From Polytrichum commune (lineage: Eukaryota; Streptophyta; Polytrichopsida; Polytrichales; Polytrichaceae): DNA of 64,000 bases. The translations under genes and the position numbers were made by a program. Below are positions 39,751 to 61,806 of this stretch, piece by piece; positions within the stretch are counted from its first letter, which is position 1; every line of letters starts with the position of its first letter. Where the stretch lies: assembly GCA_950295325.1 (NCBI GenBank), contig OX485807.1:38098440-38162439 (forward strand), read 5' to 3'. A model generated the notes under the pieces. The model saw only the letters and a list, made by a program, of their open reading frames with translations, ran no database searches and had not been told where the DNA came from.

Positions 39751-39850
39751 CTCCACATGCAGAAATCCTGCTCGCTTTCTGAATACTAGTGGGCCTTTGC
39801 AGCGAGGGAGATTTTCCTCGGCTCTCATGAATGCCCCATGGAGCCGCTGA

Positions 39851-39858
39851 TTTATATA
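39851..39858 (-). promoter_or_regulatory. Candidate TATA box of the P450 gene
   Basis: TATATAAA on the minus strand, 101 nt before the ATG at 39750 and 212 nt before the ATG at 39639. Transcription would be expected to start about 30 nt downstream, near 39820. Confidence 0.5.
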
Positions 39859-41639
39859 CAGAAGGGCAGTGGATGGTTGAACTGCCTGTTGAAGCATCGC
39901 ATCTAGGAGGAAAACTACGTCATTCATGAGAAAAAAAATTATATTGTAATAGCATAGGCTTTATGGGACCTTGTGAATCGGTAGTTAGTGTCTGTACTTT
40001 AACCCTTCAAGCTCCAAGCGGCCCATCCTGTGCCTCACAATGCCATACCCACGGTTTTAAGAACACGTCTTGGTTCGTTTTGTTAAAAGTATAAAAATTT
40101 GATTTCATCCAAAACTAGCTCAGTTATTAGTATAAATAGGATTTTTCTAATCAAAAACATACCTACGTGTTGAATGAGCTATAGGGAGATCTGAGTGTGT
40201 ATGAAAGACTTAGATTGAGATACATATCACATATGTCTAATCACTGTTGTCACTTATGATTTTACTAACACTTCCTCTTTTCAATAGTTGTGTTCAAGAT
40301 GGTTTAAAACCTTAAACAGAATAAAGTATTTCAATACTTGTTGGGAGTGCATACAAATTGTCATGAATCCCCTAGAAACACTTCTCCAGTCCTTTAAAGG
40401 GATTAGGTAGCCTTACTAGAGCGTAAGCTCAGAGTGTTTTTGAACATCCCATGTTGTGAGTATCAGACAAAAACATATAATGATTTTGCAGCCCCAGACT
40501 CTGTTGACCTCCACAACGTGGAAAAGCAGACTTGAAGTCCACTCTGTTCCCATAACTTAATCTATTGCACTTCTTTGTAATTTTGTGGGGCAAAAGTCCC
40601 CTCCCCAAACGTTTGCATGTTTGAGTTGTTGTCAGGACCCCAACTTGACAAAATCTGTGTACGGAAATGCTCGAAGGTGACAATCAGTGTCCAGGAAGAA
40701 ATTATGGACGAAATTGGTCCAAATCGTAAGTCTTTCCAAAGTCCAACCAGTTACATGTTGTGATCTTCCAGAATTTTCTTTGATAATTTGACGTATGTTA
40801 CACAACGACCTCTAAAATGATGGGTGCTTTTCCCGAAAGTCTTGAACTTCAACCGCTTATTTCTCAGACTCCACCAGTTCATCTGTAAGTAGTGGTCGGG
40901 CCTCCCCGTTCATTGGTGACAACATTTCTCACTTTAGAATTATTATAAATAAATAAAGAAAACAAATAACAACACCCAATGGCTTGGACAACTTCACTAT
41001 GCATATATTTATCTTGGAACAAAATGCCAAGGGGAGGGGGGAAGAGGAAGGAAAAGAAAAAGAAAAAGAAACATAAACTCACAAAACACACTACAACAAA
41101 ATCGACAAAAAAACGACTTTGTTTATGATTGTTATTTGAGTCGTTGAGGACTACAATGACTATTAATTTTTGTGTTATTACGGACGACTTGTAACGGACA
41201 GACAGTTGTTGGGGACGTGACGTGGGAACCTGAACTCTAGTCATATAGGGTAGTCGTAAACATGTTGAGCAGACGTGGCAAACCATCATGATTTAGATTT
41301 CATGTGGCGTTACGTGGCAACGCCACGACCTCACATCCATGTCATCATCTGACATGGCATCCACGCCACGACCTCACATCCGGGTCATCATCTGAGTTGG
41401 CTCTCACGCCATGTCAACAAGAGCCGGCAAATGACTACACAAGAACTTTATTTATGGACACGTGGCATTATATTAGGTGTCCACTTGTCACGCCATGTGT
41501 ACATTGATGTACAATCAGCATCCATTTCAACTTGTCACGTGTCATCAGCACACGCACTGAAATGTCCCACTAATGAAAGAGTAAACAAAGGCTCAATGTG
41601 CTCATAGATGGCCTAAACCCGTGCACATGTCACTAGCAT
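39859..41639. other. P450 5' flank and intergenic DNA, no supported gene
   Basis: No gene is visible. At 41319-41397 the phrase ACGCCACGACCTCACATCC followed by GTCATCATCTGA occurs twice, 42 bp apart. Positions 41494-41534 recur at 62761-62801. Confidence 0.45.
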
Positions 41640-42175: not shown

Positions 42176-45100
42176 TTATTCTGTTGGTATTGTTTGGTTA
42201 TTTTCAATTCGTCTTTTATGTAGAAGGATTGAACTAGCATATTGTATGGCAATGGTGTTTATTTCTTTGAATGTATGGTTTATAGAATTTTGAGGTAGTT
42301 TAAATGTTTGTTCAAGTTGTTTCATTGACGGGGTGTGTGTGGTTCGTCTAGCTCCAGTTGAGATGACTATAAGTGGGTCTACTTTCTAGCCTTGTTGAGT
42401 GATGTCATTAATTAGTGGTTGATATTTTTGAATTTTATTGTCAATTGTATCTTGTGGGAATATGTCGTTTGTGTATGTGAATTCAATAAATTGTACCGTG
42501 AGGTTGTCTGTTGGGTGTGGTGGTGGGGTGCTTTGGTGTGGGAGTTCTTTGATACATAGGAGGTCGGGTTTAAATCGTGCATTGCAGTGGCATCTTTGTT
42601 GTTCACATGTACATGGTAGGAGCCATGTGGGGACTGTATTCTCTTGTGGGTTGTTGTCGAATGTCCCTGCATTCATGAGGATGTAGCATCTTGATTTTTG
42701 CAATGATAGGATTAGTTTTCTTAGTTGCCATACTGCTTTGTTATGCCTTTTGGTTTTTAGGGCATGTACATGGTGTTGATTGCATTTTAACAGTACATAT
42801 AGTCATGTATCTGCATCAGAGGAGTTACAGATTGGGCATGTGATAGATAGGAATCTTTCTATGCCAAAAAATAGTTGTTTTCTGGCGTTGCCCATATATT
42901 GTCCAGTTCGGAATTTTAGTATGCATGTTTTTTGTGAGTCTAATATAATAGGGTTAGACCAGAAATTATTAGATATTTCATTATCAATGTCAGGGTTCAT
43001 TGTCCATTTGCTAATGTTGGGAAATTGTTCTGACATGGTTTTTAGATTGTTAACTCGGTCGTGTTTAGTTATGTATGTTTCGAGGCATCTGACAGGGCCT
43101 TTGTCAGGTCGCTTGTTTGGTCCAAGCCAGGTGTCTTTTTGGAAATAGTATGGTGTGGTGTGTGCAAATTCGTATGATTTAGCAACGAATCTGTATCTTT
43201 TTTTTGCGCCTTGTTTTGCTAATTGGTCTGCTTGCTCATTTCCATCAATGTTTGTGTGTGTTTTTACCTTATATATCGTAGTGGGTTGCGTTCGGTTTTT
43301 GAGCAATTCTACCATAGATGTTAATATAGTTTTGTCAGCATGATTGTTATGTTGGGTAGAGTGTTTTATTTGTGTGTTAAGTACATATAGACAGTTGAGG
43401 CAGTCTGTGAATATGTGTGCTGGTTCATTTGTGTATTTGATAGTAATTAATCTGAGTGTTTTGTGTATGGCCATTAGCTCAATCCTAAAGCTGGTTTGTA
43501 GGCCAGGCAGTCTTTTAGATATACGTATTTCTGCTTTTGTTGGGTTGTAAAGTCCATAGCCAATTTTTTCTTTCTTCCAATGTCTGTCATTTGCTTGTAT
43601 GGGTGGGACAAACGATCCGTCTGTATAGTAGTTGTATTGTGGTGGGAATTTTAATATCGTGTTTTTTTCGAAGTTTGGTAACGGTGGTATGTTTGTAGTT
43701 AATGGGTTGATATGGGGTGGGTAGAGTAATTTATTCCATTTAGCGTTTTTGTTTACTGGAGTATTGTGAGGTGTGGGTTAGGCCTTTTGTATGTGGTATT
43801 GTGTTATTTGTAGATTTGCGATTGTTGTTTTAATTGTGTCTATTTGGTTGGGTGTGCCAATGTTGTGGTTTTGGTGGTGGATACAGAAGATGTGTATTGC
43901 TAATGGTTATATCCGAGGTTTGTTTATGTTTTGGGGGGTTGTTGGTCCGTCATATGTAATGGTGTCGGCATTGAAATAAGCTAACACATGTGTGTCCGGG
44001 AATGGTCCGGTGTGTGGTGAGTAGTTTTGGTACCAATTAATGTCCGGTGTGACTAGTAATGTGATGTTGTTTGGGTCGTTTTTGGCTGCTAGTTTTGTCC
44101 AATGTATTACTTGTTGGGTTGTTTCTTCATTATGTGGGTGGGCATACCCAATACCAATCCATTTATATTAGAAGGCAGTGCCTAGTGATCCAAAGATTTT
44201 GTCTCTTGCAAATGGGAAATAAAATTTAGTAATATGTGTAGAACATGTTACTGGTGATGAGAAGTATGAGTGTGTGATGTTGAATGTTTTAGTGATGGAA
44301 TCAAGGAGATTTACTGGAAGAATGTGTTGTGATGCTTTTAGTGGGTATTTTTTCGGTTTTTTAGAATTATATCATTGGTAGAACCATACAACTTCTGTTT
44401 CAAATGATTGTGGGGGAGGTACTAGACCGTGTGTGTTGTATTTGTCTTTGTTGTATTGTTGCCAAAGCCATTTTAGTCTTGTAGTTGGGATGGTAATGAG
44501 GTGTCTTCCCTTGTCTTCATATATATCTATTAATTCATTTTGTATGTGTATAGTGTTTTCAACAGTGGCAATTTCTTTTTCTGGGTTGCATTTTATTACT
44601 GAAATTTGAGTATATGGTATTATCATAGGTGGTGGTATAAATCTTGGATCTTTGGCTTGTATAGGGGCTAGGTGTTTGTGCGATGTTTTTATAGTAGTTG
44701 TGTTGATATTTTGTGTAGTATTCTTTTAGCAGTTTGATGTTGTGTTCGATTATTAGGGGTTGGTTTAGTGGGAAGAGTTCGCATTGTGGCAGCCATTTGT
44801 TATATGTGGTGTTGTTTTGGAGTGACCATTGGCATAGGTATGTGTTGAATTTTTTGGTTATTTTATACTTATCTTTGGTTTCGTTTGATTTGTGGTTCAG
44901 TATAATGTGGACGGGGAATCTGAGTGGATTATTTTTTATGTTGGGGGTGGATTGGGTTGTTGGAGTTGTTGTGGTATTGGTGGGTGTAAGGGGTTTTCTT
45001 GCACTCTGGGTGTTAGTTCTCTATTTTCTGATATATATCTTGCTTTGAGTGTGCGGGCTTGTGGGTGTCTGGTACATGAATTTGGACAATTTTGGTTGCA

Positions 45101-48100
45101 ACTTTGTTGACAAAAAAGTTGTTCCGCTATTCGTAGTGCAGTTTTTTCGAGTTTTGTCGGTATTTTATAATATATTTGGAAGTTTTTTTGTGACATTAAA
45201 TTTGTGCCATTGGGGAGGGAGATATGTTTTATTTTTTTTATGTTGTAAGTTAGGAGTTTATGGAATAGTTTTAGGGATAGCTCGGGGTTTAGTTGTGGTA
45301 GTTCGGTTGTGGTTTGTGGTCTTCATTCATGTTCTAGTTCTGTTTTGTGGAGTTGAAAGTTTGCTTCTATGCTTTTGAGGTGAGCTCCTCGTTCTTTTTT
45401 CATTAGAAATAATGTTCGTGTTGTAGGTGATCTTATACAGTCTTGGTATTTGATTCTTTGTATGTCCTCTGCTCCACCGTGTTTGGCTAGTATATGTTGT
45501 ACAAGCCCTTTGTATATTATTCCTAATCTTCCGGGGTCATTTAGTGCGTTTCTAAGTTGTTCACTAATACATCTTAGGTAGGCATTTTTTAATGAGAATG
45601 CTTCTAGTATAAATAGATCATGTGGTAGTTGGGTTATTACATTTGCTGTGCATTTGGGTAGACCACAAATTATTTTTTGAATTCCAATTATTTTTTGTTT
45701 AATTTTTTGATGGTTGGTAATGAGTATGGGACTGCGTAGAAGCTATAGGCTATACCGGCTCTGATGACAGTATCCACCATGCTTATTTTTTGTTTGATTG
45801 CTGCTGGGCATTTTGTTAGTTCTTTACATTGGTTTATTATTTTAGCCAACGTGATGTGTGTTTGGAGCTTCCATTTTAGTGAGGGTATTAGTTGTATGCC
45901 TAAATAGACATAGGGTTCGTTTTGGTGTATGATAGGTAGAGGCACCACGGGCCTTGGCTTGGTGGTTAGGCTCATGGCCCCCAATGAGGAGGTTGTGGGT
46001 TCTATTCTCCATGCCGGCGTGGTGCTCACCACCTTAGTCCACTCAACTATGGTGGGGGGTCCTTGGACCTTGTTGTATGGGTACCTCAAAGCCCTTTGGG
46101 GGGATACCATGTCCGGTATCTTCAAGGCACTAGTGGCTAGCTAGGAACTAGTATAGTGTGTCACTATAGTGTCCATCCTCGAAAGGGGAGAGTAGTATTG
46201 TCCCAGTGTCCCCTTGTCCAGTGGCCATCGGGTTCATTGGCATTACGAACGGACACTTTATTCACGCCGGCCCCTTGTAGACCGGAGTTTCTCTCTCTCT
46301 CTCTATGATAGGTAGTGGTTGGTTTCTGTAGTTGATGTTTTGGGCTTGGATTTTGGCTTTGAATGTTTCCGGTTTTATTTTTGATTTATTTGGACATCCT
46401 GTGATGGCACATTTTAGCACTCTTAAATCCATTCCGGCCCAATCACAGTATTTGTCTAATTTGCTTAGTTGTGTTTGTATAGATTGAAGATTGTTTGTGA
46501 TAGCGGCCAGATCGTTTGCGTATGTTGCCGAGCTGATTGTTAGTTTGGACGTACCAAATGTGTATCCATGCTTTCTTCTTTGTAGCCACCTTAGTAGAGG
46601 TTCTAGGAATATTAGGAAGAGGTATAGGTTGAGTGTGTCGCCTTGTATTGTGCCTCTTTGTATTGGTATAGGTTTTGTTTTTCCGAAGTGTTTACCAGTG
46701 AATATGGTATTGGAGTTTGAATAAATGTTTCCTATTAGGGTCACCGCATCTTCTGGGTAACCTAAGTATTTTGTTATTGCTAACAGCCTTGCGTGATCAA
46801 GAGAACCGAAGGCATTTTTGAAGTCAATATACAATAAATATATATCTTGGTTTGTAAATCTTGCATCTTCTAGTGCTGCTATGAGGAGTTGGAGTTGTTT
46901 AGACGTGCTTCTTTCTGCTCTGAATCCTCCTTGACTGTCATGTAGGATTTGGTGTTTTTCCCCATATGTTGATAATATGAATGTTAGGGTACTTGTAAAG
47001 AATTTGTATATTGTGTTTGTGAGTGCAATTGGTCTATGGTTTGATAATTTTGAGGGTTCTCCTTTTTTATATAAGAGTATGGTTAAGCTTATTTTTCATG
47101 ATGTTAGAATTTATTTTTGTTTGTAACAGTGGGAGAAGAATAAGAAGAGTAGTTTGTGAAAGATTTCGGACATATTTTTTATGATTATATTGGAAATTTT
47201 ATCGGGGCATGGTGTTTGCTAGGTTTTTAAGATAAATGTCGTATGTTTCTCTGTCAAAGTATTCATGTAGTGGAGTTTGTGGGATTCCTCTCTTGTCGAT
47301 GACAAATCCATCCAGGTCATGCCAGGGGTATTGTCTTACACCGCAGGTGCAGTATGGTGTGTGTTCCGGATGGTGATAACATGTTGGTACTGTGGGTCTG
47401 TTGCTAATGGATTGTTATTTGTGGATTTCGTTGGCTATGTCTACCGGGTTTATAAGTATGTTGTGGTGTTCATCTGTAATGCAGTCGAGTGGGGGTGTTT
47501 CTTGGTTTTTGAAGACTCTTTTGTTAATTTTCTTTGGACTTTTTTCATATAGTTGTCTATATTTGGTTGTGGCTTTTTTAATGCATTCTTGGGTCTATTT
47601 TGTGGTAATTTTTCGGGCGTGTATATTTGCGGTTTTGGCTATTTGGGCTAGTGTTTTTATCCATTCTTGTTGGTTAGGTTCTTGATTTGGGGGGGGGATA
47701 ACGACTTGAATATGATTACGTAGTTCTTCTATTATTGGGTGTGTTAACCAATTTGATGACTTCTTTATGGAGTAGATTGCTTTTCTAATTAAATGGTAGG
47801 TGGAAAGATGTTTTTTTCCATTTTGTTTGTAATTTTTTTGGTAGAAAGCCTCTTTGTTGTGATGTTCGGTTTGTGAGGTCTGGGAGGGGTGGTGTGCTAC
47901 ACGTGTCTTGGGTTTTTTCAGAAATTTGTTGAATTAAGTGGTCTAACTTAGTGCAAGATGTTTGCCATTGTACAGTTGTTATTTGGTTGTTATTTAATAT
48001 GTTTGTGAGTTCGTTTATTTGGAGTGCGATTTCTTCGAAAAGTTTTGTTTTGAATATTTCGATATTTGCCTATGGAATGGGGTTTAGTAGCCTTGGTGGT

Positions 48101-48498
48101 TTGTTTGTGGTTGGTGGCATACAGCGGGCTAGTAGTGTATTTGGTGGTATATGTAGTGTTATTGGGGAGTGGTCTGAGTTTAGGTTATGATCATTATTTG
48201 TGGTTGATGAGTATAGAGCGTTATTGGGTGTTTTAATGTAATATCCATCTATTAAGCTAGTTTGGTTGTAGTCTTGACCCCCTTGTCTAGAATATGAGCT
48301 ATTCGTGGGGATATATGTGAGTTGGAGGTTGTTCGTAAATGTATGCCATTCTATATCTTCAACTTGTGGTGGTGTTGTTACGTATTCATTTTGTTGTCCA
48401 ATTAGGGCTATGTCTCTGTTAAAGTCTCTGCATAGGATGAGTGTGTGGTTTGGGTTGTTAGTGTTTTGTTGTGATCGGTTGAGTAATGTTATATTCAT
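42176..48498 (-). pseudogene. LINE ORF2 remnant: APE (part)-RT-RNase H-CCHC-RLE
   Basis: Broken coding remnant of LINE copy 1. Readable blocks on the minus strand include the APE C-terminal part (48070-48498), the RT core (46262-46834, Phe-Lys-Asn-Ala-Phe motif A, mutated YAND motif C), RT thumb (45688-45930), connector segments (44372-45196), RNase H and downstream (42803-43474, HANIDGNE/THTNIDGNEQADQLAKQG-type block) and the restriction-like endonuclease (42386-42703). It is useful as an independent copy: residues conserved between it and the 52.7-59.9 kb copy mark the functional parts of this family. Confidence 0.85.
45940..46303 (+). mobile_element. tRNA-derived SINE family B inserted in LINE copy 1
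   Basis: A 364-bp insertion splitting the LINE reverse transcriptase. A perfect 12-bp target duplication TATGATAGGTAG flanks it (45928-45939 and 46304-46315). The head has an A box TGGCTTGGTGG (45955-45965) and a B-like box GGTTCTATTCT (45998-46008), 32 nt apart as in tRNA genes. The 3' end is a (TC)n tract. Related 3' parts occur at 41640-41815 (-) and 60583-60722 (+). Confidence 0.88.
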
Positions 48499-50581
48499 CT
48501 TAGCATTGTTGTAGCAATGTTATGGTAAGTAGTTAGTGAAGGAAACACCGAGTTTTGTGATGGAAGGCGGAGCCCTTGAAGTTCTTGGAGGCACATGGGA
48601 GGAGTAGAAGCGGCATGCCGTAGGCAAGCTGCTCCTCCACCCGATTGAGCCAACAGACTTTTAAAGTGCTTCTCACAAAACTGGCCCTTCACAGCTCGAA
48701 AAGACACCACCCAGCACTACATCATTGCATATAAACCCCCTAGCATCACCACAAAGACACCACTACACTCTCGCTCTCTGCATCTCACACGCATTCTCGC
48801 TGCCTACATCTCACACGCACTCTTGTTGCCTGCATCTCATACAACTTCCGCTCCCTACACACTCACACACCTCCCGCTACCTGCATCCTACGTGCTAGAT
48901 AGATCTCTCAACACTGCTACAATAGATACTACAGAAGCTGCCTCCAGGAGTCGCCGCTGAAGTTGCAGACACACTCTCCTCCGAAGCTCACACGCCGCTG
49001 CTGAATCCGAGTACTCTTCCCCGAACCTGCAAAGTCGTTGCCCTACCGTGCTCACCACGAAGCCACTACCCTCCCCTGCTCGCCACAAAGTCGCTGCCAC
49101 CACCGAAACTACCACTACCCACCGAAGTCACTACAACCAGGTCTTTGAACTGAAGACGCTGCCGCCCGTCATCTCACCACCGATCCGAAGAAGATCCAAA
49201 GAAGACAGCTGCAACCGATCCGAAGAAAACAACTGCAAGTTGAGAGCCCCCGAAGTTGAGAGCCCCTGCAAGCTGAGGCCACCACCTGAGTGGACACCTG
49301 ATCAGACACGACGAACGGCCACATCACCGAAGAAGGACTTCAGGGACATCCTGCTCGAAAATTCAGAGCTTAGGGACAGTTTGATCGAAGAATTCGGGGA
49401 CAGTCTGAGAGAAGAGGCCGGTGACAGTCCGAGGATCGAGTGTGAAGGAATGGATGGTAGATAAATGGTTGCATATGTTGCTGCTGCTGTTGCATAAGTT
49501 GCCGCTGTCAAGATCCGATTGAAGCTGCCTGCAAGGATCAGTGTTGCGGAAAGTTGAGTCAACACTCAAAGTGTGACAATTCGTTGCTGCTTCAACTTCT
49601 CGAAAGAGTTTTCCAGGTAAACACAAAAACCCATCTTTTACACACAAAGTAGGATAGTCAATTCCGCAGTTTGCACACACACTCATAGAATCTACATAGA
49701 GCAAATTATGTGTTGTTTGAATAGAATTACATAGAGCAAATTATAGAGCAAAACTAAAACTTTGTTTTCACAAAATTTGATAGTACTAGTAAACACCATA
49801 GCTAGCAGAACCCTCTGAAGTTTTTTCAAAAACACAAAAACCCATCCTCACACACAAATTAGGATAGCTAACCCCGTAGATGCACACACACATACATAGT
49901 AATAAACTTTGTTTTAGAGTAGAATTAGAATAGTACAGTATAGAGCAAACTGAAGTTGATTATACAAACTAGAAACTGATGAAAACTAGTAAACACTAAA
50001 GCTAGCTTAGAAAATCTTCACGTAGATATATAAATAATTAAAACCCATACAAGACTAGTTATAGATCATCACAAAAACTTAGAGATAGGTAGTATAGGCA
50101 CCCCTTGTCTAAATTAGTTTTAGGTAGATGATAGTTGCATATGCACCTAAAAATTATGCTTGTATGCTGGCTGATCATAGCCAAACCATATTTGAGATCC
50201 TCGCACCGTGTCCAAGCTCACACACACCTTGTATGTTATTTTGAAAATATTTTGTATGATTGTTATAGAATATTAGAAATTCTAAAAACTACTAGAATCA
50301 TTGTAATCACTAATGCTCACTTTTGTCAAAAACAAAAACACAAAAGGGAACATTACTTAAATAGTGTAGATAGCATATATATGAGAGTTTATTATTCTTG
50401 TCACTTCTTCTCTAAAATCAAATACCACTCAGGCTCACCAATTAAGTGGTGGGAAGGTATTTGCTGCGAGAACCAAAGAAGTAACATCCCAACATATGCT
50501 ACGAAAATCTTTTGGAATGTCATAGTAGAAAAAACATCTGAAAATGTTATACCTTATGCTACTTTATACAGGTCTAAAGAC
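48499..50581 (+). other. Leader/flank upstream of LINE copy 2, with a tandem duplication
   Basis: This region lies between truncated LINE copy 1 and ORF1 of copy 2. It contains TATAAA at 48730-48735, CT-rich imperfect repeats of about 33 bp at 48770-48880 (CATCTCACACGCA), and two related ~190-bp units at 49620-49810 and 49830-50010. The units share ACACAAAAACCCATC, AGGATAG and ACTAGTAAACAC and are offset by 210 bp. Open frames here have no recognisable domain. It is plausibly the LINE 5' UTR, but the true 5' end of the element is not determined. Confidence 0.45.
49620..50010 (+). repeat. Two ~190-bp direct repeats in the presumed LINE 5' UTR
   Basis: Unit 1 (49620-49810) and unit 2 (49830-50010) both begin with ACACAAAAACCCATC, continue with ACACACAAA.TAGGATAG, contain AGAGCAAA, and end with ACTAGTAAACAC..TAGCTAG. 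Confidence 0.7.
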
Positions 50582-52184
50582 ATGGCTGCAGCTAGCTCCA
50601 CCAAGAACATGGATGTTTGTATTGTTGACGAAAACGAAATCATAACCACCTCACAAAAAAGATCTACTTCTGCTCAACTAACGATCACTCAAAAGAAAGC
50701 AAAGAACAAAAAAGACCTAGGATCAAAATACTCTTCTTTATGGTTAGGGTTTCAAGCTTTAAATCTTATAAATAAACAAAGAAACTTACCCATAGAGAAA
50801 GAAGAAACTACAAGAGAATTACTAAAAAGAAAAATCGATTTTGATGAGGCCAAAGAAATTCAAAGTGCTCGGCCTTGTTTCCCATATGTCCCTCAAACTG
50901 AGTGGCCCTCCAAAAGGGAGGATGGGAAAGAAGGACAACATTATAATATCACTCAACTCCCGTTCGATGTTGAAGTAGATGAAAATGGTTTCTCCTTTGA
51001 TTACCAAGTCTCAATACACTTTGAGCTTGGTGAACAAAAATGGAAAAGAGATGTCATCATACACAAAGTTATAGAACGGTTGTTTATAATGAACATAGAA
51101 CTTGGAGAGTTGATTGGAGAGTCCGTAGCAATCATGTGTTTTCACAAATCCACGATATGGAGCGGTACAATTAAATTACATCTTAAAAACCCAATGTTTG
51201 ATGCCAAAAACCTCCTCCAAGGGATGAAAGCCTTCATCCTAATATTGGACGATGGCAAACCTTGGAGAGGTAAAATCTGCAAATCTTATGATGTCTTGGC
51301 ACTCAATAACCTCCTCTCAGTAAAAATCACAAGTGACACACTAATTGGTAAAGAATGGTATAATATACTAGAAGAGGTAGTAAAGGAAGGGTTCGAACGA
51401 ACTTATGATTACGAGATTACCTCAGTCCAAAAAAAAAAAAATGAGCTTCGCATGGATAGTAGCCACATCCCCCGAACAAGCGAAAAAAATCAACTTATAC
51501 AAAATATCGCTTGATAATGAAATTTTTGAAGCCAAATTCACATCTCGAGATAAACTCACAGAAGATGACAAGGCTAGAAAGAATGCTCTCATACTAATAG
51601 TAAAAAACCTAAACAAAGTAAAAGATACGGAAACAATTGAATATGAACTCAAAAAACACATGGGAGAAAGAAATATGCTAAATATCTTCTTCAAAATCGA
51701 GAATGGCAAACATATAGGAACATGTAATGTCCAGTGCCTCAATGCCTCCGTATACAAAAAACATGTAAAGAAAAATACCAAGCTCCTCGGTAAATATATA
51801 GAATTTACCCCACACCCTAAAAGCCTGGACGGTATAAATGCACCTTCCCAAGAAGAATTAACAAGATTAGGGTTTTCAGATGTTAACACAACACTTGCAA
51901 ACACTGTGGAAGCCCTCGAAAATGCACCAATCAAAGGCTTGACGAGACAAGAGGTTAAAGCAATGGTGGAAGGAGAATCTTCCAAACTCCGCAAAGAATT
52001 GGCAGAGAGAGAAGAAATCGTATATCGAAAGGCAACGATATACACCGACAAATCTATGAAATCCATACCCGCACAACTTACAATATTCAAGCAGCAGCTA
52101 CTGACTACGGTAAATTACATTGAGAGCGTAGCGAAAGACTCGGAAGGAGGACCGGAAGAAGGTAATATGGACATGTCAAAATAA
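50582..52184 (+). pseudogene. LINE ORF1 protein, frameshifted at an A13 tract
   Basis: The first half reads in one frame (ATG at 50582 in a GACATGGCT context, on to a stop at 51514) and the second in another (to TAA at 52182-52184). The switch falls at 13 consecutive A (51429-51441); 12 A would give one uninterrupted ORF of about 533 codons. The N-terminal half is basic (KKAKNKKDL) and then has no family I can name. The second half has an RRM-like stretch (LILIVKNL at ~51585, extending to about 51830) and a charged helical C-terminus. This suggests an RNA-binding ORF1 protein that coats the LINE RNA; the role is inferred by analogy. The same frame is open upstream to 50135, but that part looks like leader. 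Confidence 0.65.
51429..51441 (+). other. A13 homopolymer at the ORF1 frame switch
   Basis: Thirteen A residues lie exactly where the two ORF1 reading frames overlap; one fewer A restores a single frame. Confidence 0.9.
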
Positions 52185-52186
52185 AT

Positions 52187-52765
52187 ATGACATACAACGA
52201 CCCGGTTATACGTAACAATACAATAGTATATCTTAATACTAAAAAATACACAAAAAATAATAAGGTATTTATAAATACCACCAAAAATATAGGAAAAATC
52301 ATCCCCAATACACCACAAAGCATTAACAAAAACCATAACAACAAACCCTACAGACCGCATACAACTAAAACACCAAAACCCTCTATCCAAACAAACATAA
52401 TTGGAGCTCGGCCTACCGGCCTCGCACAAAACATATACAAAAATAACAACAAAATGAAATACCATAAGATAGATAAACTAGATAAGGTAAAAAAGAACCC
52501 GAATATGAACGACAAAAATACAACAATATACTCTAAAAGAAACATAAAACATAAAATACTTACAATAACCACCCCTTATATCAACAACATACACCGCACA
52601 ATAAATGGGAAAAAACCGCATACACCCAAACTAAATACTAAACACCTAACCAAGAAATACATAATGCACAACACTCAACCATTTAGAAATACCAAACACC
52701 AAAACATAAAGACAAAAAACATAAAAAACAACATATATATATATATATATATATATGAAAAATAA
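52187..52765 (+). CDS. Small basic Asn/Lys/Thr-rich ORF between LINE ORF1 and ORF2
   Basis: The ATG lies 2 nt after the ORF1 stop. The 192-codon frame ends in a (TA)n microsatellite (YIYIYIYI) and overlaps the ORF2 ATG by 11 nt (ATGAAAAATAA). It is very rich in Asn, Lys, Thr and Ile and has no recognisable domain. The phrase GARPTGLA is matched in LINE copy 3 (near 62043-62066), so the region belongs to the element. It may be a genuine third ORF, or an N-terminal extension of ORF2 put out of frame by a changed number of TA units. Confidence 0.45.
   Translation: MTYNDPVIRNNTIVYLNTKKYTKNNKVFINTTKNIGKIIPNTPQSINKNHNNKPYRPHTTKTPKPSIQTNIIGARPTGLAQNIYKNNNKMKYHKIDKLDKVKKNPNMNDKNTTIYSKRNIKHKILTITTPYINNIHRTINGKKPHTPKLNTKHLTKKYIMHNTQPFRNTKHQNIKTKNIKNNIYIYIYIYEK
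52734..52756 (+). repeat. (AT)n microsatellite at the ORF2 start
   Basis: About eleven AT units immediately precede and include the ORF2 start codon. Copy 3 lacks this tract. Confidence 0.9.
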
Positions 52766-52820
52766 GTCCAAAATAAAAAACCTACACAATATTATTCAAA
52801 ACATACTTCTTAAAAGTGGG

Positions 52821-52844
52821 GACATAGAACTAAACCCAGGACCT
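52821..52844 (+). other. 2A-like ribosome-skipping motif (DIELNPGP)
   Basis: Residues 23-30 of ORF2 read DIELNPGP, preceded by ILLKSG. This matches the 2A consensus D-x-E-x-N-P-G-P, where the ribosome skips the final Gly-Pro bond. The upstream product would be a 29-residue peptide, or a longer one if the 192-aa ORF was once in frame. Copy 3 carries the same motif with one substitution. Confidence 0.85.
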
Positions 52845-53479
52845 ATGCCTAATGTATTAAAAGAACATCCACCGGCACACAGATCTAGATCCAAAACATA
52901 CTTCATACCAAATACAATAAAACTTCATCCTGAATACCAACACATCACACAAACCTTCTCACCACTACTAAATACAAACCACTTCAACCACAACAATGCC
53001 TCTAGAACATTTCCTAACCTTTCATCATATATTAACCAAAAAAGACACTACCCAACACCAAATATCTTATTTGCACTAATCACAACCATAGGCCCAAACA
53101 TAGATACATGTGAATACCTCATCCATAATTTAAACCCGGATTGGACCTCTTTATTGCTAACAAAACTAAGCGCCCTAAGAAATCCCCCTGAAAATCACAT
53201 TAATACTATACACCCACACATCCAAATACTACAAGATAACCAAGATATAATAAACCCACCAAATACCATACATGAAAAAATTTACAAATACATACACCAA
53301 AACCAGGATCCACCAAACATTGAAGCACTAAGTAATCAATTCCCATACCTACCGATAAACTTTCTTAAAGAAACACTGAAAATATTTGAACCCCTAACTG
53401 AATACACACATCCTCCACCTATACCACCACTACCCCAGCCTCCACCGCCACATTATAACCAAAGTATTAATCACCACAC

Positions 53480-54250
53480 TCAAATCATAACATGGAATGC
53501 ATCATCACTAAACACAACACTACCTAACATACAAAACATTATATACCATCCACAAGAAAAACCAGCTATAATAACCATACAAGAAACAAAATTAACAAAA
53601 ACTAAATCAACTAAATATATACAAAACTTAGTTCCAGAATATAAGCTAATCTTTAACAACACACATACACTAACAAGATGCATTCAACAAAGGATACCAT
53701 ATACTCCAACCAGAGGGGGCCTCCTTACACTCGTAAACAAAAAATATGCATTCCAAGGAAACATTTCTAAAATACCTTCCCCTGCCAACATATCACCATA
53801 TCTACAAATTATCCATATTAAAAACAACCCACTAAAACCATGGTTACTACTTCATATTTATATGCCATCACACGAAGAAGACATCAGATTAATCCCAGAC
53901 ATAATACACACTATAAAAACACAAATAAATGCACACCCAAATCATACACATACCTTATGCGGAGATTTTAATCGAGACATTGCACTAATAGGTCGACAAA
54001 ATGAACATGGTACCACCCCCCACAAGAAGAAGACATTAGATGGAGAACCTTTATAGATAGTCTAGCCCTCGCTTATATCCCTACTAACACCACATATTCT
54101 AGACAAGGAGGAAATAATTACACGCATACTAGTCTAATTGACGGTTTCTACACCAACACACAACATGCAACAACATATACATCAAGAACATTACAAGAAC
54201 AAAATCTAAATTCTGACCACCTACCAATCAGTTTAGAAATACCACCTAAC
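53480..54250 (+). other. APE-type endonuclease domain of LINE ORF2
   Basis: Motifs in order: ITWNASSL (~53484), ITIQETKL (~53571-53594), RGGLLTL, IYMPSHEED, CGDFNRDIALIG (53958 on), a C6 frameshift at 54016-54021, then YSRQGG, LIDGFY and NSDHLPI (SDH at 54212-54220). These correspond to the exonuclease-endonuclease-phosphatase fold of APE-type LINEs; the catalytic Glu, the Asp/Asn and the final Asp-His pair are all present. Confidence 0.88.
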
Positions 54251-55149
54251 ACCCTGATAGCCCGAGCAACACAACCCACAATCCCTACATCAACTAGAAT
54301 TCTAAATCCCATTCCACAAGACAAAATAGATAATTTTAATACCAAGTTTTTCGAAGAAAATGCAATCCAACTTAATGAAATAACCACCCTGCTATCTAAA
54401 GAGCACCTAACACCAGACCAATGGCAACAAGCATGTACTCAAATGAATAATATCACCCAAATAATCTCTCAAAACATTGAAGAAACATGTAGTGCCACAC
54501 CTATACCCACCTTAACCAATAGAGCCAGTCAACAAGGTGGCTACTTACCCAAAAAAACCCAAAAAATATGGAAACAACACATAACAACCTACCATCTAAT
54601 TAGGAAAACTATATACATCACAAAAAACCTACCAAATTGGCGTACACACCCAATCATGAACACATTAGGACAATATAGCCGAATACACATCCCGTCCCCA
54701 CCTGAAGACGAAGCCCTAATAAATATATGGATCAAAGAAATAGCAGTAATAGCCAAAACAGCAAATTTACAAGCTAGAAAAATTACTACTAAATACACTA
54801 AAAATGCATTAAGAAGGCCATATCCAAATACAGAAAATTGTACGAAACCAACCCAAAAAGAATAAACAGAAAAATATTTAAAAATCTTGAGTCCCCACCA
54901 CTATATTGCATCACGGATCGTAACAACAATATACTCACAAATCCAGAGGACATTGCAAATGAAATACACATACAACAAACCCTTAGTAACAAACCCGCCG
55001 TACCCACATGCTACTACTTATCAAAACACCCCCCTAAATGCACGTGCGCAGTTAGGCAATATCCATGGCACGACCTAGAAGGATTGGTCCTAGAAAAACG
55101 AGGAGACCCACACACACCCTTATATACATACCTAGACTTAGAAACATAT

Positions 55150-56330
55150 AACCTTTGCCTCAAAAATCTAGCAAACAACAAAACTCCAGGCCTAGACAAA
55201 ATTTCCAATTCCATATTAAAAAGTATGCCTAAAAAATTCCAGCACATACTATTCTTGTTTTTCACACATTGTTACAAACAAAAACAAATCCCGACCTCTT
55301 GGAAAACCAGCCTCACAATACTGCTATACAAAAAGGAGACCCCTCCTTACTATCTAATCACAGACCAATAGCACTCGCTAACACCATATATAAATTCTTT
55401 ACAAGCACCCTAACATTCATACTCTCAGCATATGGTGAGAAACATCAAATATTACAAGACAGCCAAGAGGGATTCAGAGCAGAACGGTGCACATCAAGAC
55501 AAATACAAACACTAATAGCAGCACTAGAAGATGCCCAATTCACCAACCAAGATATTTATTTACTCTACATTGATTTCAAAAATGCATTCGGATCAATAGA
55601 CCATGCAAGACTATTAGCCATTATGAAAGATTTAGGATACCCAGAAGACGTAGTCCAAATAATTGGTAACATATATTCACACTCCAACACCACCTTCTCT
55701 AGAGAATATTTCGGCAGAACAAAAGAAATCCCAATACAAAGAGGCACTATACAAGGAGACACCCTTAGCCCATATCTCTTCATCATATTTTTGGAACCCC
55801 TATTAAGATGGTTAAAACAAGGTAACTATGGATATACTTTTGGAACATCCAAAGCCATAATTAGCTCGGTAGCATATGCAGATGACCTAGCAGCAATCAC
55901 CAACAAGCTCTCATCATTACAGGCACAATTAAACAAATTAGACCGATACTGCGAATGGGCCGGAATAGATCTCGGAATATCAAAATGTGCAGTCACTGGT
56001 TGTCCAAATAAATCCAAAATGAACCAAGAAATATTCAAAACACATATAGAAACCGCCAACATCACATATAGAAACCAAACCATTCCAACACTCCACCAAA
56101 ATGAACCCTACGTATACCTAGGTATTCAACTAGTCCCATCTCTCAAATGGAAAATACAAATACACATTACCACCACTAAGGTTATCAGCCAATGTAGTCA
56201 ACTAGCAAATTGCCCTGCTACAATGAAACAAAAAATCAGCATGGTAGATACAGTAATTAGAGTAGGAATTGCATACAGCTTCTACGCAGTACCGTTCTCA
56301 CTGCCTGGGATCATAAAACTAGATTAAAAA
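55150..56330 (+). other. Reverse transcriptase domain of LINE ORF2
   Basis: Motifs in order: NKTPGLDKI, SWKTSLTILLYKK, SNHRPIALANTIYK, QEGFRAERCTSRQ, LLYIDFKNAFGS (motif A Asp at 55572), GTIQGDTLSPYLF, VAYADDLAAI (motif C, 55875-55886), EWAGIDLGISKCAV, YVYLGIQL. All catalytic Asp residues are intact. A -1 shift lies at 55335-55336 and a stop at 56325. Confidence 0.92.
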
Positions 56331-58384
56331 ATAATAGCCATCCAAAAAAAAAATGTGGACTCCCCAAATGTACACCAAACATGGTCACTCAACTACCCCA
56401 CGAATTGTTTGGAATAGAAGCCTTCTCATTAAAAAATGCCTACCTCAGATGCATAGGGGAACAACTAAGAAATGCATTAAATGACAAAGGTAAACTTGGA
56501 ACAATATATAGAGGTCTTACACATTACATACTAGCCAAATACGGGGGTGCAGAGAACATACCCAGAATCAGGCACCATGATTGCAATAGATCCCCCACTA
56601 CCAGAACAATATACCTTATCAAAACAGCAGGTGGAGCCCACCTCAGAAGTAAGATAGAAAAATTCCCCTTAAAAGCCACACCACTTGAAAGAGAATGGCA
56701 TAAGTTATCCACTACACCCCCCCCCCTCAGAAATTGTCTTCCCGAGAGTTAAAATATATACACAAATTACTTCTGGAAAACATATATGACATAAAACAAC
56801 TCACCCTTCCAAACGGCACACACTTAATGTCATACATCGAATACTCAAAATACTATAAAAAACCCACCCACCCGATAAAACAAGCTTTGAAAATAATAGA
56901 AAAATTATTTTGTTACCCATGTTGTAATGAAGAATGCCTAGAAACATGCCAAGAACATTACCCACCACGTACACTAAAAAGAGCATACGTCATAAGGGAA
57001 CATAATATAACAAATAACGAAACCCGTATACACCCACTAACCCCACCACACCCAACACACCCGACCACTCCAGTACACATAAAAAACAACCCAATAAAAT
57101 ACCCTATACAGTCAATAATAGACTACTGCATAAAATCAACTACAGATAAATACAAAATTATAAAAAACCAACACACATACCTATGCCAATGGATATTATC
57201 CAATGGAATGATATACACCAAAAACCTCCCACAAAGAGAATTATTCCCCTACAATCTCCCAAGAGTCATACAACATAACACAAACTTAATACTCACATAC
57301 TACACCAAAATACAACATAAAAAATATGAAAATATCATAAAATAAAATGACATGTTTGCACAAAACAAAGATCCCAGACACATTTCCCCTCCCCTGAACA
57401 CCCCACTCGTGAAAATCTCAATACAAGAATGCAACCCTGAAAAAGACATTAACACTAACACAAACAAAATCCAAATACAAAATGACTCCGCCTATATCTA
57501 TGATGAAACAGGCAAACACATTATCACCATTCCATACAATAGGCTGATTTGGTTATGGAACCAATACAACCGCACACTACATCAACCACATGACTTAATA
57601 CCCCCTACTCAACCATTTGAAATCGAAATAACGTGGCTTTACCAAAGGTACAAACACAGAATACTGAAAAATGACCCACTTAAAACGCACATCATTCCTT
57701 GCCCAAAACACTATTAGATTATATCACGACATCCTTTGAAATCACACATTCTTATTTCTCATCACCAGTCACATGCTCAACCCATCTAACCAAATTCTTT
57801 TCACCATTTCCTAGAGATAAAATCTTTGGATCCATCGGTAACGCATTCTCACATAAGTGGCAAGGAATAGGATACGCCCACCCACACAATGAAATTGAAG
57901 CCCAAAAAGCCATCCATTGGGCCAGACTAGCAGCAAAGCAAGATCCATATACCACCACTATACTTATCATCCCAGACCCAAATTGGTACCAAAATTTTAC
58001 ACCACATTTAGGCCCCTTCCCAGACACACATGTAATCACGTAAATACCAGCAGACACCACCAAATATGAAGAGCCTACAAGACCACAACATTCCAATGAA
58101 ACACGCATAGAACCACTCACCATAAGAATCCTATGCGTCCATCACCAAAATAATAGTATCGGTACTACAGAACAAATGAACACAATAAGAAATATATGCA
58201 ACAACCTGAACATAACCCGTATAACCACCCAAATTGCTCCCCCTACCCCACAAAATCTAGAAGTCAACAAATGTAAAACATGGAACACCCTCACCTACCC
58301 CACTCCAAACACACAACTACACAATACAATTCCACAAATCCCCAACTATGAAAAAGAAACACCACTCAAATTCCCCCCCAAGTA

Positions 58385-58815
58385 TTACTTCTACACAGAT
58401 GGATCCTTTAATCCCCCCAAAAAAATGGGAGACATTTGGCGGAGAGAAGAAGCCGGATATGGTATATATAACCAAGAAAAAAATATCAAACTCGCACTAC
58501 GACTACCAGGCCTACAAAACATATTTCGAGTAGAACTAATGGCCATCCACCACACCCTCACAATAATAAAAAACGACTTCCCAAATGAACCAGCACATAT
58601 TTTCACAGACTGTCTTAACGGCCTATATGTAATCAAAAACCAAATCAAACACCCCACACTACACAATAATCACCCCGATAAAACAATATTAGAAGAAATA
58701 GTGAACTTTCTTACACAAAGAACCCAACCCACAACATTATACAAAGTAAGAGCACATGCAAACATTAAAGGTAACGAAGAAGCCGACGCACTTGCCAAAG
58801 AAGGGACATCAAAAG
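58385..58815 (+). other. RNase H domain of LINE ORF2
   Basis: YFYTDGSF (first Asp), FRVELMAIHH (Glu), HIFTDCLNGLY (Asp) and VRAHANIKGNEEADALAKEG (His and final Asp) form the complete RNase H active-site set. Confidence 0.92.
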
Positions 58816-59174
58816 AACACTACAACGCCTCTCAACTACACGAATTTGCCCACTCAACGCCATACTACTACCAAAGAGACACATGGCCATCAATGGAAAC
58901 AACCCCGGACAAAGGGCCCATCAGATTCCTAGAAAAACACCTAGTGACGTATAGCAAGAACATAAATTTAGAATTAATCCCCATATTATACCCCAACATA
59001 GATAAATGGATAGCCAACGACAAAATAGACAATGAGTTATCCAATAAATTTTGGACAAACAAAAACATAACTGACTCCCAAAAAACATGCCTTCTAAAAC
59101 TGCGACACGGTCAATACATGGGAAATGCTAGGAAACAACTATTCTTTGGCAGAGAAGCTTTTCCATCAATTACA

Positions 59175-59700
59175 TGCCCCATATGTGACTCAACAGACCC
59201 GGATATATGGCTACATGTACTTCTAAAATGCAAACAACACCACATACATGCCCTCCGCACCAAAAGACACAATAAAGCAGTATGGGAATTAAGAAAACTT
59301 TTGGTGTCATCAAAAAAATCAAGATGTTTTATTCTCATGAATGCAGGAACATTCAATAATGACCCCCTAGAAAACACGGTCCCCTCATGGTTATTACCGT
59401 GTGAATGTGGTCAACAAAGGTGCCATTGTAACGCCAGATTCAAACCAGACCTTCTATGTGTGAAAGGACTACCATACCAGTCCCCACCCCCACTAGAACC
59501 CAACGACAACCTAACAATACAATTCATTGAATTTACATACTGCAACGATAGAATACCGGATGAAACTATAAACCGAAAAATAGAAAAATATAAACCTTTA
59601 ATAGACAATATTGCCAACAAAGGCTGGAAGATAGACCCACTAATTGTCATCACTGCAGGCGCTAGGGCTGCCACACACATCCCCTCTATGGACAACATTG
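59175..59700 (+). other. CCHC motif and restriction-like endonuclease of LINE ORF2
   Basis: CPICDSTDPDIWLHVLLKC gives C-x2-C-x9-H-x4-C. Next comes a Cys-rich PCECGQQRCHC, then ARFKPDLLC, IQFIEFTY and INRKIEKYKPLI, followed by a GW motif. PD...E...K followed by KY matches the restriction-like endonuclease of early-branching LINEs (R2, NeSL, CRE type) and of Dualen. The same residues are kept in copy 1 (ARFKPDLLC, VQFIEFTY, DNKIQKYQPLI). The assignment rests on motif order and spacing. Confidence 0.75.
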
Positions 59701-60019
59701 AAACAACATTTAAAACCCCTAAGCAGAGCATCAAAAACACATTTGAGGCAATCAATGTCATTGCCATACAATACGCTATGTCCATAATTCTGCACAAAAG
59801 AAGGATAGAAAATAACGAGTCAATACCACTAGACACACAACTAGATAGATAAAATATTATTTACAAAATAAATAAAAATAAAAATAATAAAAATAATAAA
59901 AACTTACCCACTTTGAGAATAGACACTCAAATAACCATAAACATGTAATCAATAGACCAATAACCATTAGTGAATAGCAAGCGCCTTGGTTGAAGTATAA
60001 GTGTGGTCAATTCTGTAAA

Positions 60020-60220
60020 TGGTCGCCAAGTCATGGTCCCACGGTTGGTTGGGTAAGATGGATTGTGTTACACTAATACGGTCCGGGTTCGATTCACGGT
60101 GAACCCGTCTGAGCGCTTAATGTGATACACTATGACTTGGTACTGCAAGTGAGTTAAAACACATGCAGGAAAATTGTACCCACCAACCAGGTGCTACCCG
60201 TCTCCTGAGCTACCGGTGAC

Positions 60221-60276
<56 letters not shown>
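60020..60276 (+). mobile_element. tRNA-derived SINE family A, copy 2, with 51-nt poly(A)
   Basis: Aligns with 41896-42095. It has the B box GGTTCGATTCA (60086-60096) inside CCGGGTTCGATT, the same GCCAAGTCATG/ATGACTTGG inverted pair, and GCAGGAAAATTGTACC downstream. It ends in 51 uninterrupted A (60226-60276), which suggests a young insertion. It lies just past the 3' tail of LINE copy 2. Confidence 0.78.
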
Positions 60277-60278
<2 letters not shown>

Positions 60279-60365
60279 AGTGGACTTACCACTACCCCTC
60301 TTTTACTCTACTCACACTAACTGGTTGCTTCTATCCATCTCAACATACAAACTAAAAGAAAGTAC

Positions 60366-60418
60366 TCCCAATTTTTAATTTTTAATTTTTAATTTTTTAA
60401 AATAATAATAATAATAAT

Positions 60419-60455
<37 letters not shown>
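60366..60455 (+). repeat. Compound simple repeat (TTTTTAA)n-(AAT)n-(AC)n
   Basis: Three short repeats adjoin: TTTTTAA repeated about three times, AAT repeated about six times, then about seventeen AC units from 60421. Confidence 0.9.
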
Positions 60456-60457
<2 letters not shown>

Positions 60458-60582
60458 GCCAACCAATAAATAAAAGGCACCACAATCAACCAATGGGAGA
60501 CCACTCAACATCCACTCCACAAAGTTATAACCTTTGCCCTACAAACACCCACACATGGCCAACTTGGCCACCCCAGCTCCTA

Positions 60583-60722
60583 TAGTGTCCACCCCGAGAG
60601 GGGTTAGTAGTCCTGCACCACTGATATTATGCCCACTGGACATAATATCAAGGGTGGGTCGAACGGGCATTTCAATCACGCTGATCCTATCAAGGGTCAA
60701 CGTTTCTTCTCTTCTCTCTCTC
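60583..60722 (+). mobile_element. Fragment of SINE family B (3' part)
   Basis: TATAGTGTCCACCCCGAGAGGGG, AGTAGTCCTGC, CGAACGGGCATTTCAATCACGC and a terminal pyrimidine tract TTCTTCTCTTCTCTCTCTCT parallel the last 150 bp of the 45940-46303 SINE, with more divergence. It abuts the interrupted end of LINE copy 3. Confidence 0.6.
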
Positions 60723-61026
60723 TGTTTTGTTGTGTGATGTTTTATTGTATTATTGGTATAAGTCGTATGTCCTCTTCGTGTGATGGCATGTAGATGTGTA
60801 TTATTAACTATGGTTGTAGGGGTTGGTTATTTATTTTTATTATTTGTAAATATGGTGATATTGCAGCTGGAGTGGGGATTTTGGTGATGTTACCTGGATA
60901 TGCGTATAATTTGTTTATGAGTGTAAGGAGTCCACCTCTTGCAGGTGTATATGGCATTCTTTGTTGTATACATCTTGTTAATGTATGTGTGTTGTTAAAT
61001 ATTAGTTTGTATTGTGGGAATAGATT

Positions 61027-61482
61027 TTATATGTACTTTGTGGATTTTGTTGCGGTTAGTTTGGTTTCTTGTATAGTGATAATTGCGGGGTTGTTTGGTA
61101 TATATGATATAAGTTGGTGGAGGTTTGGTAGGGCAGTGTTTAGTGACGAAGCGTTCCATGTAATTAAGTGTGTGCTGTGATTTGTTGTTTGGTTTGCTTG
61201 GGGGCGCAACGTGGGTATGTCGGGTAGTAACGGGGGGTGGGAATATTCATGTAGCGGGTCTCTGCATTTTAAAGCTTCTGTGAGTAGTTCTTCTGGTAAA
61301 AAGGGAAATTTGTCTGTTATTAGCTGTATATTTAAGGGTGTGTTATTTTGTTTGATGAAGTTGTATAGTTCTTTATGGATGGTTTTGGATGGGTTGATAA
61401 TGTCTTGATTTGTTTGTAAAAATTGTGTGTATGGGTGCGTGGTTGTGATGTGTCTTTTGGGTGGGTTTTGGAATGAGGTCAT
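61027..61482 (-). pseudogene. LINE ORF2 fragment (pre-APE region and APE start), copy 3
   Basis: A 151-codon block colinear with copy 2 residues around 53180-53620. Shared phrases include IHPHIQ/THPYTQ, NQDIINP, ITWNASSLNT and ITIQETKLT.TKSTKYI. It confirms that the segment between the 2A motif and the endonuclease is conserved in the family. It is interrupted upstream and downstream. Confidence 0.8.
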
Positions 61483-61806
61483 GCGTTCTAAAACTATTGT
61501 TGTCCAATCCAGTACTGGGGTTTGTATTAATAAATGGTTGCATGTTTCTATTACTGGGCTAATTGTGGTAATTAGTGCGTATAGTATGCGTGGTGGTAGA
61601 TGATGTTGATTTCTGTGGATGTATCTTAATAGGTACGGGTAGTTTACAATTGCTTCGTGGTATTTTGGGTGTACTAGGTTTATGATAGGGGAGAATTATT
61701 TTGCTAGATGTTGGTATTCAGGTTGTAATTTGATTGTGCATTCTATAAACTACCTTTTACATCTGTTTTTGTGTGTGGTTGGATGTGTTTGTAGGATGTT
61801 GGGCAT

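Follow-up and report, generated by a model that had tools for sequence, protein, structure and literature searches.

A probable Dualen-like retrotransposon with two endonuclease types and a degenerate PCIF1-like domain in a land-plant genome

The subject of this work is a non-long-terminal-repeat (non-LTR) retrotransposon, or long interspersed nuclear element (LINE), lying in a stretch of 64,000 nucleotides (contig C5:38098440-38162439, hereafter the window) of a land-plant genome of 407.8 Mb in 64 contigs. The element is very probably (about 0.85) a Dualen-like LINE with two endonucleases, one of the apurinic/apyrimidinic type (APE) and one restriction-like (RLE), and autonomous in its intact siblings. 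It is regarded as Dualen-like because APE, an RLE fold match, an R2-like reverse transcriptase (RT) and ribonuclease H (RNase H) occur together.

Natural copies of the element were compared piece by piece, the loci being labelled L010-L074 and the alignments A1, A2, A3, A6 and A7. A1 comprises the window copy, L041 and 12 further loci; of 30 loci fetched, 13 besides the window copy had stop-free C-terminal matches, and L037 among them was left out. A2 consists of 10 members picked for long open frames. The host is accepted as a land plant, as an earlier sequence-only reading of the window had it, because matches to the green-plant and land-plant markers WRKY (34 in the genome, against none in 14 control genomes) and Aux/IAA (two adjacent matches, read as one locus) are present. 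WRKY together with a single apparent Aux/IAA locus would suit a bryophyte, and the host may be a moss. Sources given by PMC number are cited from excerpts.

Domain architecture and the two endonucleases

The interval originally noted (52755-59852) holds the second open reading frame (ORF2) of the LINE, but the whole element is larger, from 48551 to about 60722, with ORF1 upstream. Likewise, the single reading path described for it exists in some siblings, which have one open frame of 2625-2924 codons and, judging by these frames, would be autonomous, whereas ORF2 of the window copy is made of nine stop-to-stop frames with frame changes. The architecture ORF1 / ORF2 = 2A-APE-RT-PCIF1-like-RNase H-CCHC-RLE is found in three lineages, namely window/L040, L039 and L041. 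The coding features of the window copy are:

50135-52184, plus strand: ORF1 region, frames 50135-51514 and 51384-52184, with homologous ORF1 stretches in L039, L040 and L041
52755-52844, plus strand: presumed start of ORF2 with its ATG, the first 30 codons closing with a 2A/StopGo motif (DIELNPGP at 52821-52844)
53487-54250, plus strand: APE-type endonuclease over two frames, catalytic motifs by eye
55326-56129, plus strand: RT (YADD), R2-like by score
57091-57342, plus strand: possible chromodomain-like stretch (weak)
57616-57986, plus strand: PCIF1-like methyltransferase-derived domain (PF12237) over two frames, AHPH replacing NPPF at 57876-57887
58380-58808, plus strand: RNase H with a His in its D-E-D-H-D set (by eye), like RNase H1
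59175-59231, plus strand: CCHC finger, C-X2-C-X9-H-X4-C
59238-59813, plus strand: RLE, with presumed catalytic D (59448-59450), E (59529-59531) and helix K (59577-59579)

A CCHC finger had been noted, as well as a C-terminal block KPD...FIEF...RKIEKY called typical of restriction-like endonucleases, and both CPIC...H...C and the KPD block do lie in the last frame. The typing holds for the predicted fold, which matches R2 proteins, but not for the sequence, as the RLE of the window copy has no Pfam match. An AlphaFold2 model of the 602-residue C-terminal frame with 13 relatives reached a mean confidence (pLDDT, predicted local distance difference test) of 51.6; within it, the ten-residue blocks of residues 401-590 lie at 55-88, except for 38 at 431-440. 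In a Foldseek search with this model the six best PDB matches were all R2 proteins (9nl2, 9dou, 8gh6, 9nl3, 8ibz and 8iby; E 1.3e-7 to 4.5e-5), the next ones being RNase H entries. Since R2 is not known to have an RNase H (nor an APE), the R2 match should fall in the linker, the finger and the RLE. Moreover, D469, E496 and K512 of the C-terminal frame do not vary among the nine sequences of A3 and presumably correspond to D996, D1009 and K1026, the catalytic residues of R2Bm, whose lysine stands on a helix (PMC10499050); K512 falls within a predicted helix (506-525), and 16 residues separate it from E496, compared with 17 in R2Bm. The frame is not a chance one, given that it has at least 74 matches in the genome, itself included (6491 first-look candidates, 73 scored). 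Between the CCHC finger and KPD lies a second cysteine cluster, CxC...CxC (window 59400-59429), whose residues C453, C455, C460 and C462 in the C-terminal frame are the same throughout A1. Relatives of the RLE were also sought in viral contigs and in prokaryote genome contigs, and none was confirmed there.

As regards the remaining domains, the motifs WNASSL, QETKL, GDFN and SDH earlier ascribed to an APE are present in the two APE frames. The Exo_endo_phos profile stays below its cut-off of 24.5 in the window copy (1.4e-4, 22.2 bits), and Exo_endo_phos_2 is above cut-off in sibling L041 (9.7e-8). YADD was found in the RT frame, as had been read from the letters, with RVT_1 at 1.9e-28, and the RNase H is backed by its profile (RNase_H, 6.3e-14). 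The best solved relatives of the latter are RNase H1 chains (1.4e-10); a His follows KVRA, so that the set is D-E-D-H-D by eye, and not of the Arg type discussed for plant L1 elements and shown for the oomycete Utopia (PMC4640811). ORF1 resembles an RNA recognition motif by eye alone, which is not claimed here; the PDB gave one meaningless match (E 1.2).

The RT profile of the family scored 119.9, 109.2 and 108.7 bits with three R2 chains, against 73.3-74.6 bits with chains labelled LINE-1 and 75.9 bits with 8c8j, a chain labelled RNA-directed DNA polymerase and taken as L1 from parallel matches. The RT of L041 alone gave 78.0-114.9 bits with R2 against 63.6-66.1 with L1-type chains (LINE-1, 64.6), even the Bombyx R2 chains being ahead (82.1 and 78.0 against 66.1). 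By contrast, L067, an L1-like RT from this genome that served as a control, gave 180.7-185.5 bits with L1-type chains (LINE-1, 184.4) and 50.7-63.0 with R2. In an RT tree of 14 rows, which covers three groups with four outside references and no outgroup, the studied family, R2 and L1 each form one clade. The studied RT is outside the L1 clade in this tree and nearer to R2 by score.

The founding study of Dualen is reportedly that of Kojima and Fujiwara (2005). The LINE group Dualen/RandI combines APE with RLE (PMC4640811, PMC3636483), and has RNase H as well (PMC4640811). A 2015 survey had it in green algae only (PMC4438587); it has been found in the studied relatives of Chlamydomonas (PMC8226300), and is reported from cryptophytes by repeat annotation (PMC12747079). 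The studied family agrees with it in the APE upstream of the RT, the RLE downstream of the RT and the RNase H, but differs in its land-plant host, as Dualen is known mainly from algae, and in the 2A motif and PCIF1-like domain, which the excerpts of PMC4640811 and PMC3636483 do not mention for Dualen. No evident case of a land-plant Dualen/RandI appeared in the openly licensed literature searched, in the parts available. With R2 (Bombyx, Taeniopygia, Platysternon) the family shares RT, CCHC finger and RLE; unlike R2 and other RLE-only LINEs, it has an APE, and, whereas R2 targets 28S rDNA (PMC10499050), here the flanks differ among 29 3' junctions, save for those of L036 and L037, which are the same. 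Finally, the genome also has four L1-like LINEs (L067, L068, L069 and L072) with LINE RTs, but all four group with the mammalian-type L1 chain, and L067 scores in the opposite sense to the studied family. The proposal of a streptophyte member or relative of the Dualen group is thus supported by the shared architecture and the R2-like RT outside L1; the opposite outcome named with it, an RT in a standard clade and no RLE match, was not found as regards L1, and the RLE matches R2 in structure.

A rival almost as probable as not is that this is ordinary Dualen/RandI, of which the studied family would be the land-plant branch, algal Dualen already carrying a PCIF1-like domain and 2A. The same set of APE, RLE and RNase H (PMC4640811, PMC3636483) speaks for it, and the extra domains may be shared with algal Dualen; against it stands, as a weak point, that no LINE-encoded PCIF1 domain was found in the available parts of the openly licensed literature searched. 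The family differs from Dualen as described in having a 2A motif, a degenerate PCIF1-like domain and a hairpin at the 3' end, and algal Dualen may share some of these.

Several points weigh against the Dualen-like assignment. The Bombyx R2 chains score 77.8 and 73.6 bits with the family RT profile, close to the best L1-type chain (75.9), so that the lead of R2 rests on the non-Bombyx chains. Furthermore, the three-group tree leaves the family unplaced relative to Dualen, RTE and I, and membership of the Dualen group rests on the architecture. The RLE sequence gave no match in the PDB at E <= 10, and D469 and E496 are 27 residues apart, compared with 13 in R2Bm, for which a longer loop must be assumed. 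Mean confidence is low in both structural models (51.6 for the C-terminal frame, 43.5 for the PCIF1-like region). No target duplicate was seen by eye in L040, nor in the fetched stretch for L029/L073. In addition, the assignment of strands to the nucleases, the activity of the 2A motif and the binding of RNA are predictions. An APE-type LINE related to L1, I or RTE, whose C-terminal cysteine block and KPD merely resemble an RLE, is nevertheless highly improbable, for although RNase H is known in I-group and plant L1 elements (PMC4640811) and the RLE is without a sequence match, the R2 fold matches, the invariant D/E/K, the R2-like RT score and the position of the RT outside L1 all speak against it.

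The 2A motif and the PCIF1-like domain

The motif GDIELNPGP starts at codon 22 of the presumed ORF2 leader, and its sibling forms are GDIEPNPGP (L039) and GDIHPNPGP (L041), the latter, as DIHPNPGP, falling outside the strict D[V/I]ExNPGP. The pattern G-D-[VI]-E-x-N-P-G-P has 256 exact sites in the genome, against none for the reversed pattern. On contig C1, the one on which distances were checked (54 such sites), 26 of the 46 PCIF1-like matches have a 2A motif 4.0-6.3 kb upstream on the same strand. From its sequence, ribosome skipping would be expected at the motif. Trypanosomes and other species are known to have non-LTR retrotransposons with 2A-like motifs (PMC4981915); the studied family has D[V/I]ExNPGP in common with L1Tc of Trypanosoma cruzi and other 2A LINEs, but the excerpt of that source names trypanosomes and sea urchin genes, and no plant element. 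A 2026 survey found no evidence that plant viruses naturally use 2A (PMC12846837, in the part available). An L041-type RT (L071) has two exact 2A motifs upstream of it, at C2:36080494 and 36081295, with a distance of 801 nt (267 codons) between them.

The PCIF1-like domain sits between the RT and RNase H. PF12237 is above cut-off in the window (4.8e-9) and in L039, and below it in L041 (27.4 against 31.1 bits); it is above cut-off in all 150 matches scored out of 697 candidates, the genome having at least this many, and was found in all ten members of A2, with 2e-13 as the best value. Against PDB sequences, A2 gave PCIF1 at ranks 1 and 4 of four (0.064 and 0.79), with two prefoldin sequences between, and the narrower A7 gave it at ranks 1 and 2 of four (0.01 and 0.044). 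The model of the region is poor (mean confidence 43.5), its best fold match being human PCIF1 (2.7e-4, the sole one below 0.001); ranks 2-14 are 12 chains of E. coli RlmJ, an rRNA adenine-N6 methyltransferase, and one Legionella DUF519 protein. With PCIF1, a cap-specific adenosine methyltransferase, the domain shares the sequence core up to F-G-S-x-G and the fold match, but it is embedded in a LINE and its NPPF is replaced.

The Asn of NPPF is needed for methyl transfer. In the alignment to human PCIF1, ANPPF stands opposite AHPHN-like letters, and in the fetched loci, which are 20 of the at least 150 PF12237 matches and were read in some cases through stops shown as X, the motif is AHPH in 18 and AHPP in two; L039 and L040 have AHPH and L041 has AFPT. 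The ratio of nonsynonymous to synonymous substitution rates (dN/dS, NG86), calculated for eight chosen pairs, was 0.06-0.30 for the PCIF1-like domain in the seven that yielded a value, several of them with saturated dS. For RNase H it was 0.08-0.27 in seven pairs, three of these on a 35-codon piece, and for a third region of 44 codons it was 0.00-0.34 in the four of eight pairs yielding values. Judged by these sequences, the domain is under purifying selection while its catalytic motif has been lost, a combination that makes an RNA-binding module its most likely role; a tentative suggestion is that it binds the RNA of the element itself by the capped 5' end.

An active adenine methyltransferase, working on the RNA or DNA of the element despite the altered motif, is improbable: the fold-level match to PCIF1 and RlmJ and the purifying selection are compatible with it, but NPPF is replaced by AHPH or AHPP in all 20 loci, and by AFPT in L041. 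Slightly less probable still is a functionless passenger left by an old fusion. The lost motif and the poor model would agree with this; the dN/dS values do not, being below 1 in every pair with a value and similar to those of RNase H, nor does the retention of the domain in L039, L040 and L041, the region of L040 being 53% and that of L041 36% identical to L039.

Upstream of the PCIF1-like domain, the stretch 57091-57342 is predicted to form a three-strand-plus-helix fold. Its reading as a chromodomain is weak: Pfam Chromo gave E 0.018-0.12, under the cut-off, CHD1 chromodomains appeared at fold rank 20 (E 0.42), and no chromodomain was among the PDB sequence matches.

Ends, insertion site and copies

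The 5' end of the element was placed at 48551 by comparison with L044, and the 3' end near 60722, in a short-repeat tail, by comparison of 3' junctions. The non-coding features and surroundings are:

48551-60722, plus strand: the LINE, its 5' end common with L044 and its 3' sequence common with siblings up to the TC-rich tail
59853-60451, plus strand: extra stretch of the 3' untranslated region (UTR) with a short interspersed nuclear element (SINE; about 59994-60275, A tail, tRNA-derived by eye), absent from the close copies L012, L014, L015, L016 and L017
60681-60700, plus strand: 3'-terminal hairpin, covarying across subfamilies, with one broken pair in the window copy
60703-60722, plus strand: short-repeat TC-rich tail, no poly(A)
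48462-48475, plus strand: 5' target-site duplicate TGTTTTGTTGTGAT, imperfect
60723-60738, plus strand: 3' target-site duplicate TGTTTTGTTGTGTGAT
48476-48550, plus strand: 75-nt extra sequence between the 5' duplicate and the L044-shared 5' end
42185-48461, minus strand: older opposite-strand sibling, 3' part, interrupted by the LINE
60739-61715, minus strand: the same older sibling, 5' part (N half of the APE), which may extend further

The ends of the subfamilies have differing hairpin sequences, followed by GTTT and then by TATC, TC or TTC repeats, with no poly(A). In A6, which holds 17 of the 29 3' junctions, 91.2% of cells are paired, against 20.6-60.3% in slid controls, and in five of the eight pairs both partners vary; 8 of the 17 ends lack the pair at columns 18-33. 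Shuffles reached the observed value in none of 500 cases for three of five measures, in 237 of 500 for the count of pairs in which both partners vary, and in 500 of 500 for the number of pair types. Rfam gave no match at gathering score on the window.

The window LINE interrupts the APE region of an older, opposite-strand sibling, as the minus-strand homology to siblings runs to 60754-60746, breaks off and resumes at 48475-48455 on the other side. Target duplications of 11-16 bp were found in three of five copies examined (L034/L045, 11 bp; L032/L074, 13 bp; window, 14/16 bp, imperfect). The sequence beside the 13-bp duplicate of L032/L074 resembles, by eye, the 5' end in the window. As for the 75-nt extra sequence, 15-mers sampled from it were not found in the loci examined.

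Among the matches to the C-terminal frame, 11 rows are 87-100% identical, two of them apparently being one copy, and the remainder 62-64%; the counts of 74 for this frame and 150 for PF12237 are lower bounds. The closely related L011/L040 is 98.3% identical to the window copy over 9.2 kb and has two interruptions in one frame.

Other observations concern the non-coding parts and the surroundings. The SINE with its long A tail (59994-60275), past the LINE stop codon, is common to L010, L011 and L040, and L018/L034-type subfamilies have a similar SINE in a similar place and in the opposite orientation. In L045 and L046, self-similar stretches of about 90-160 bp recur in the 5' region characteristic of the L039-type subfamily and may be tandem units of the 5'UTR. 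The sense strand of the LINE is strongly G-poor (GC skew -0.32 to -0.47 over window 52001-60000), and minus-strand frames at window 34923-39960 look, by eye, like a plant cytochrome P450.

Proposed mechanism and significance

A copying cycle can be proposed for the Dualen-like element, in which the ORF1 and ORF2 proteins would bind the RNA of the element. At the 2A motif the ribosome would skip one bond, giving an ORF2 protein with proline as its first residue and a separate leader about 30-40 residues long. The R2-like RT and the RLE may then recognise the 3' hairpin, nick one target strand and prime reverse transcription; whether the first cut would be made by the RLE rather than the APE is, on present analysis, an even choice. 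The second strand would be cut 11-16 bp away by the other nuclease, and RNase H would clear the RNA.

A broader and rather doubtful possibility is that this LINE lineage captured a cap-adenosine methyltransferase domain of PCIF1 type, gave up its catalysis and, together with the chromodomain-like neighbour, employs it to hold either its own mRNA by the capped 5' end or selected chromatin. The dual-endonuclease machinery, its proteins produced by StopGo, would in this way copy full-length RNA. If true, this kind of LINE accessory module would be one of which no description was found in the available parts of the openly licensed literature searched.

The position of Dualen has served as an argument for an origin of APE-type LINEs in which the APE took the place of the RLE (PMC4640811). 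A large dual-endonuclease family with near-identical copies in a land plant lends itself to the question of which cut is due to which nuclease. It also contains two modules that were not expected there, namely 2A/StopGo in a plant element and, inside a LINE, a degenerate PCIF1 relative apparently kept by selection.

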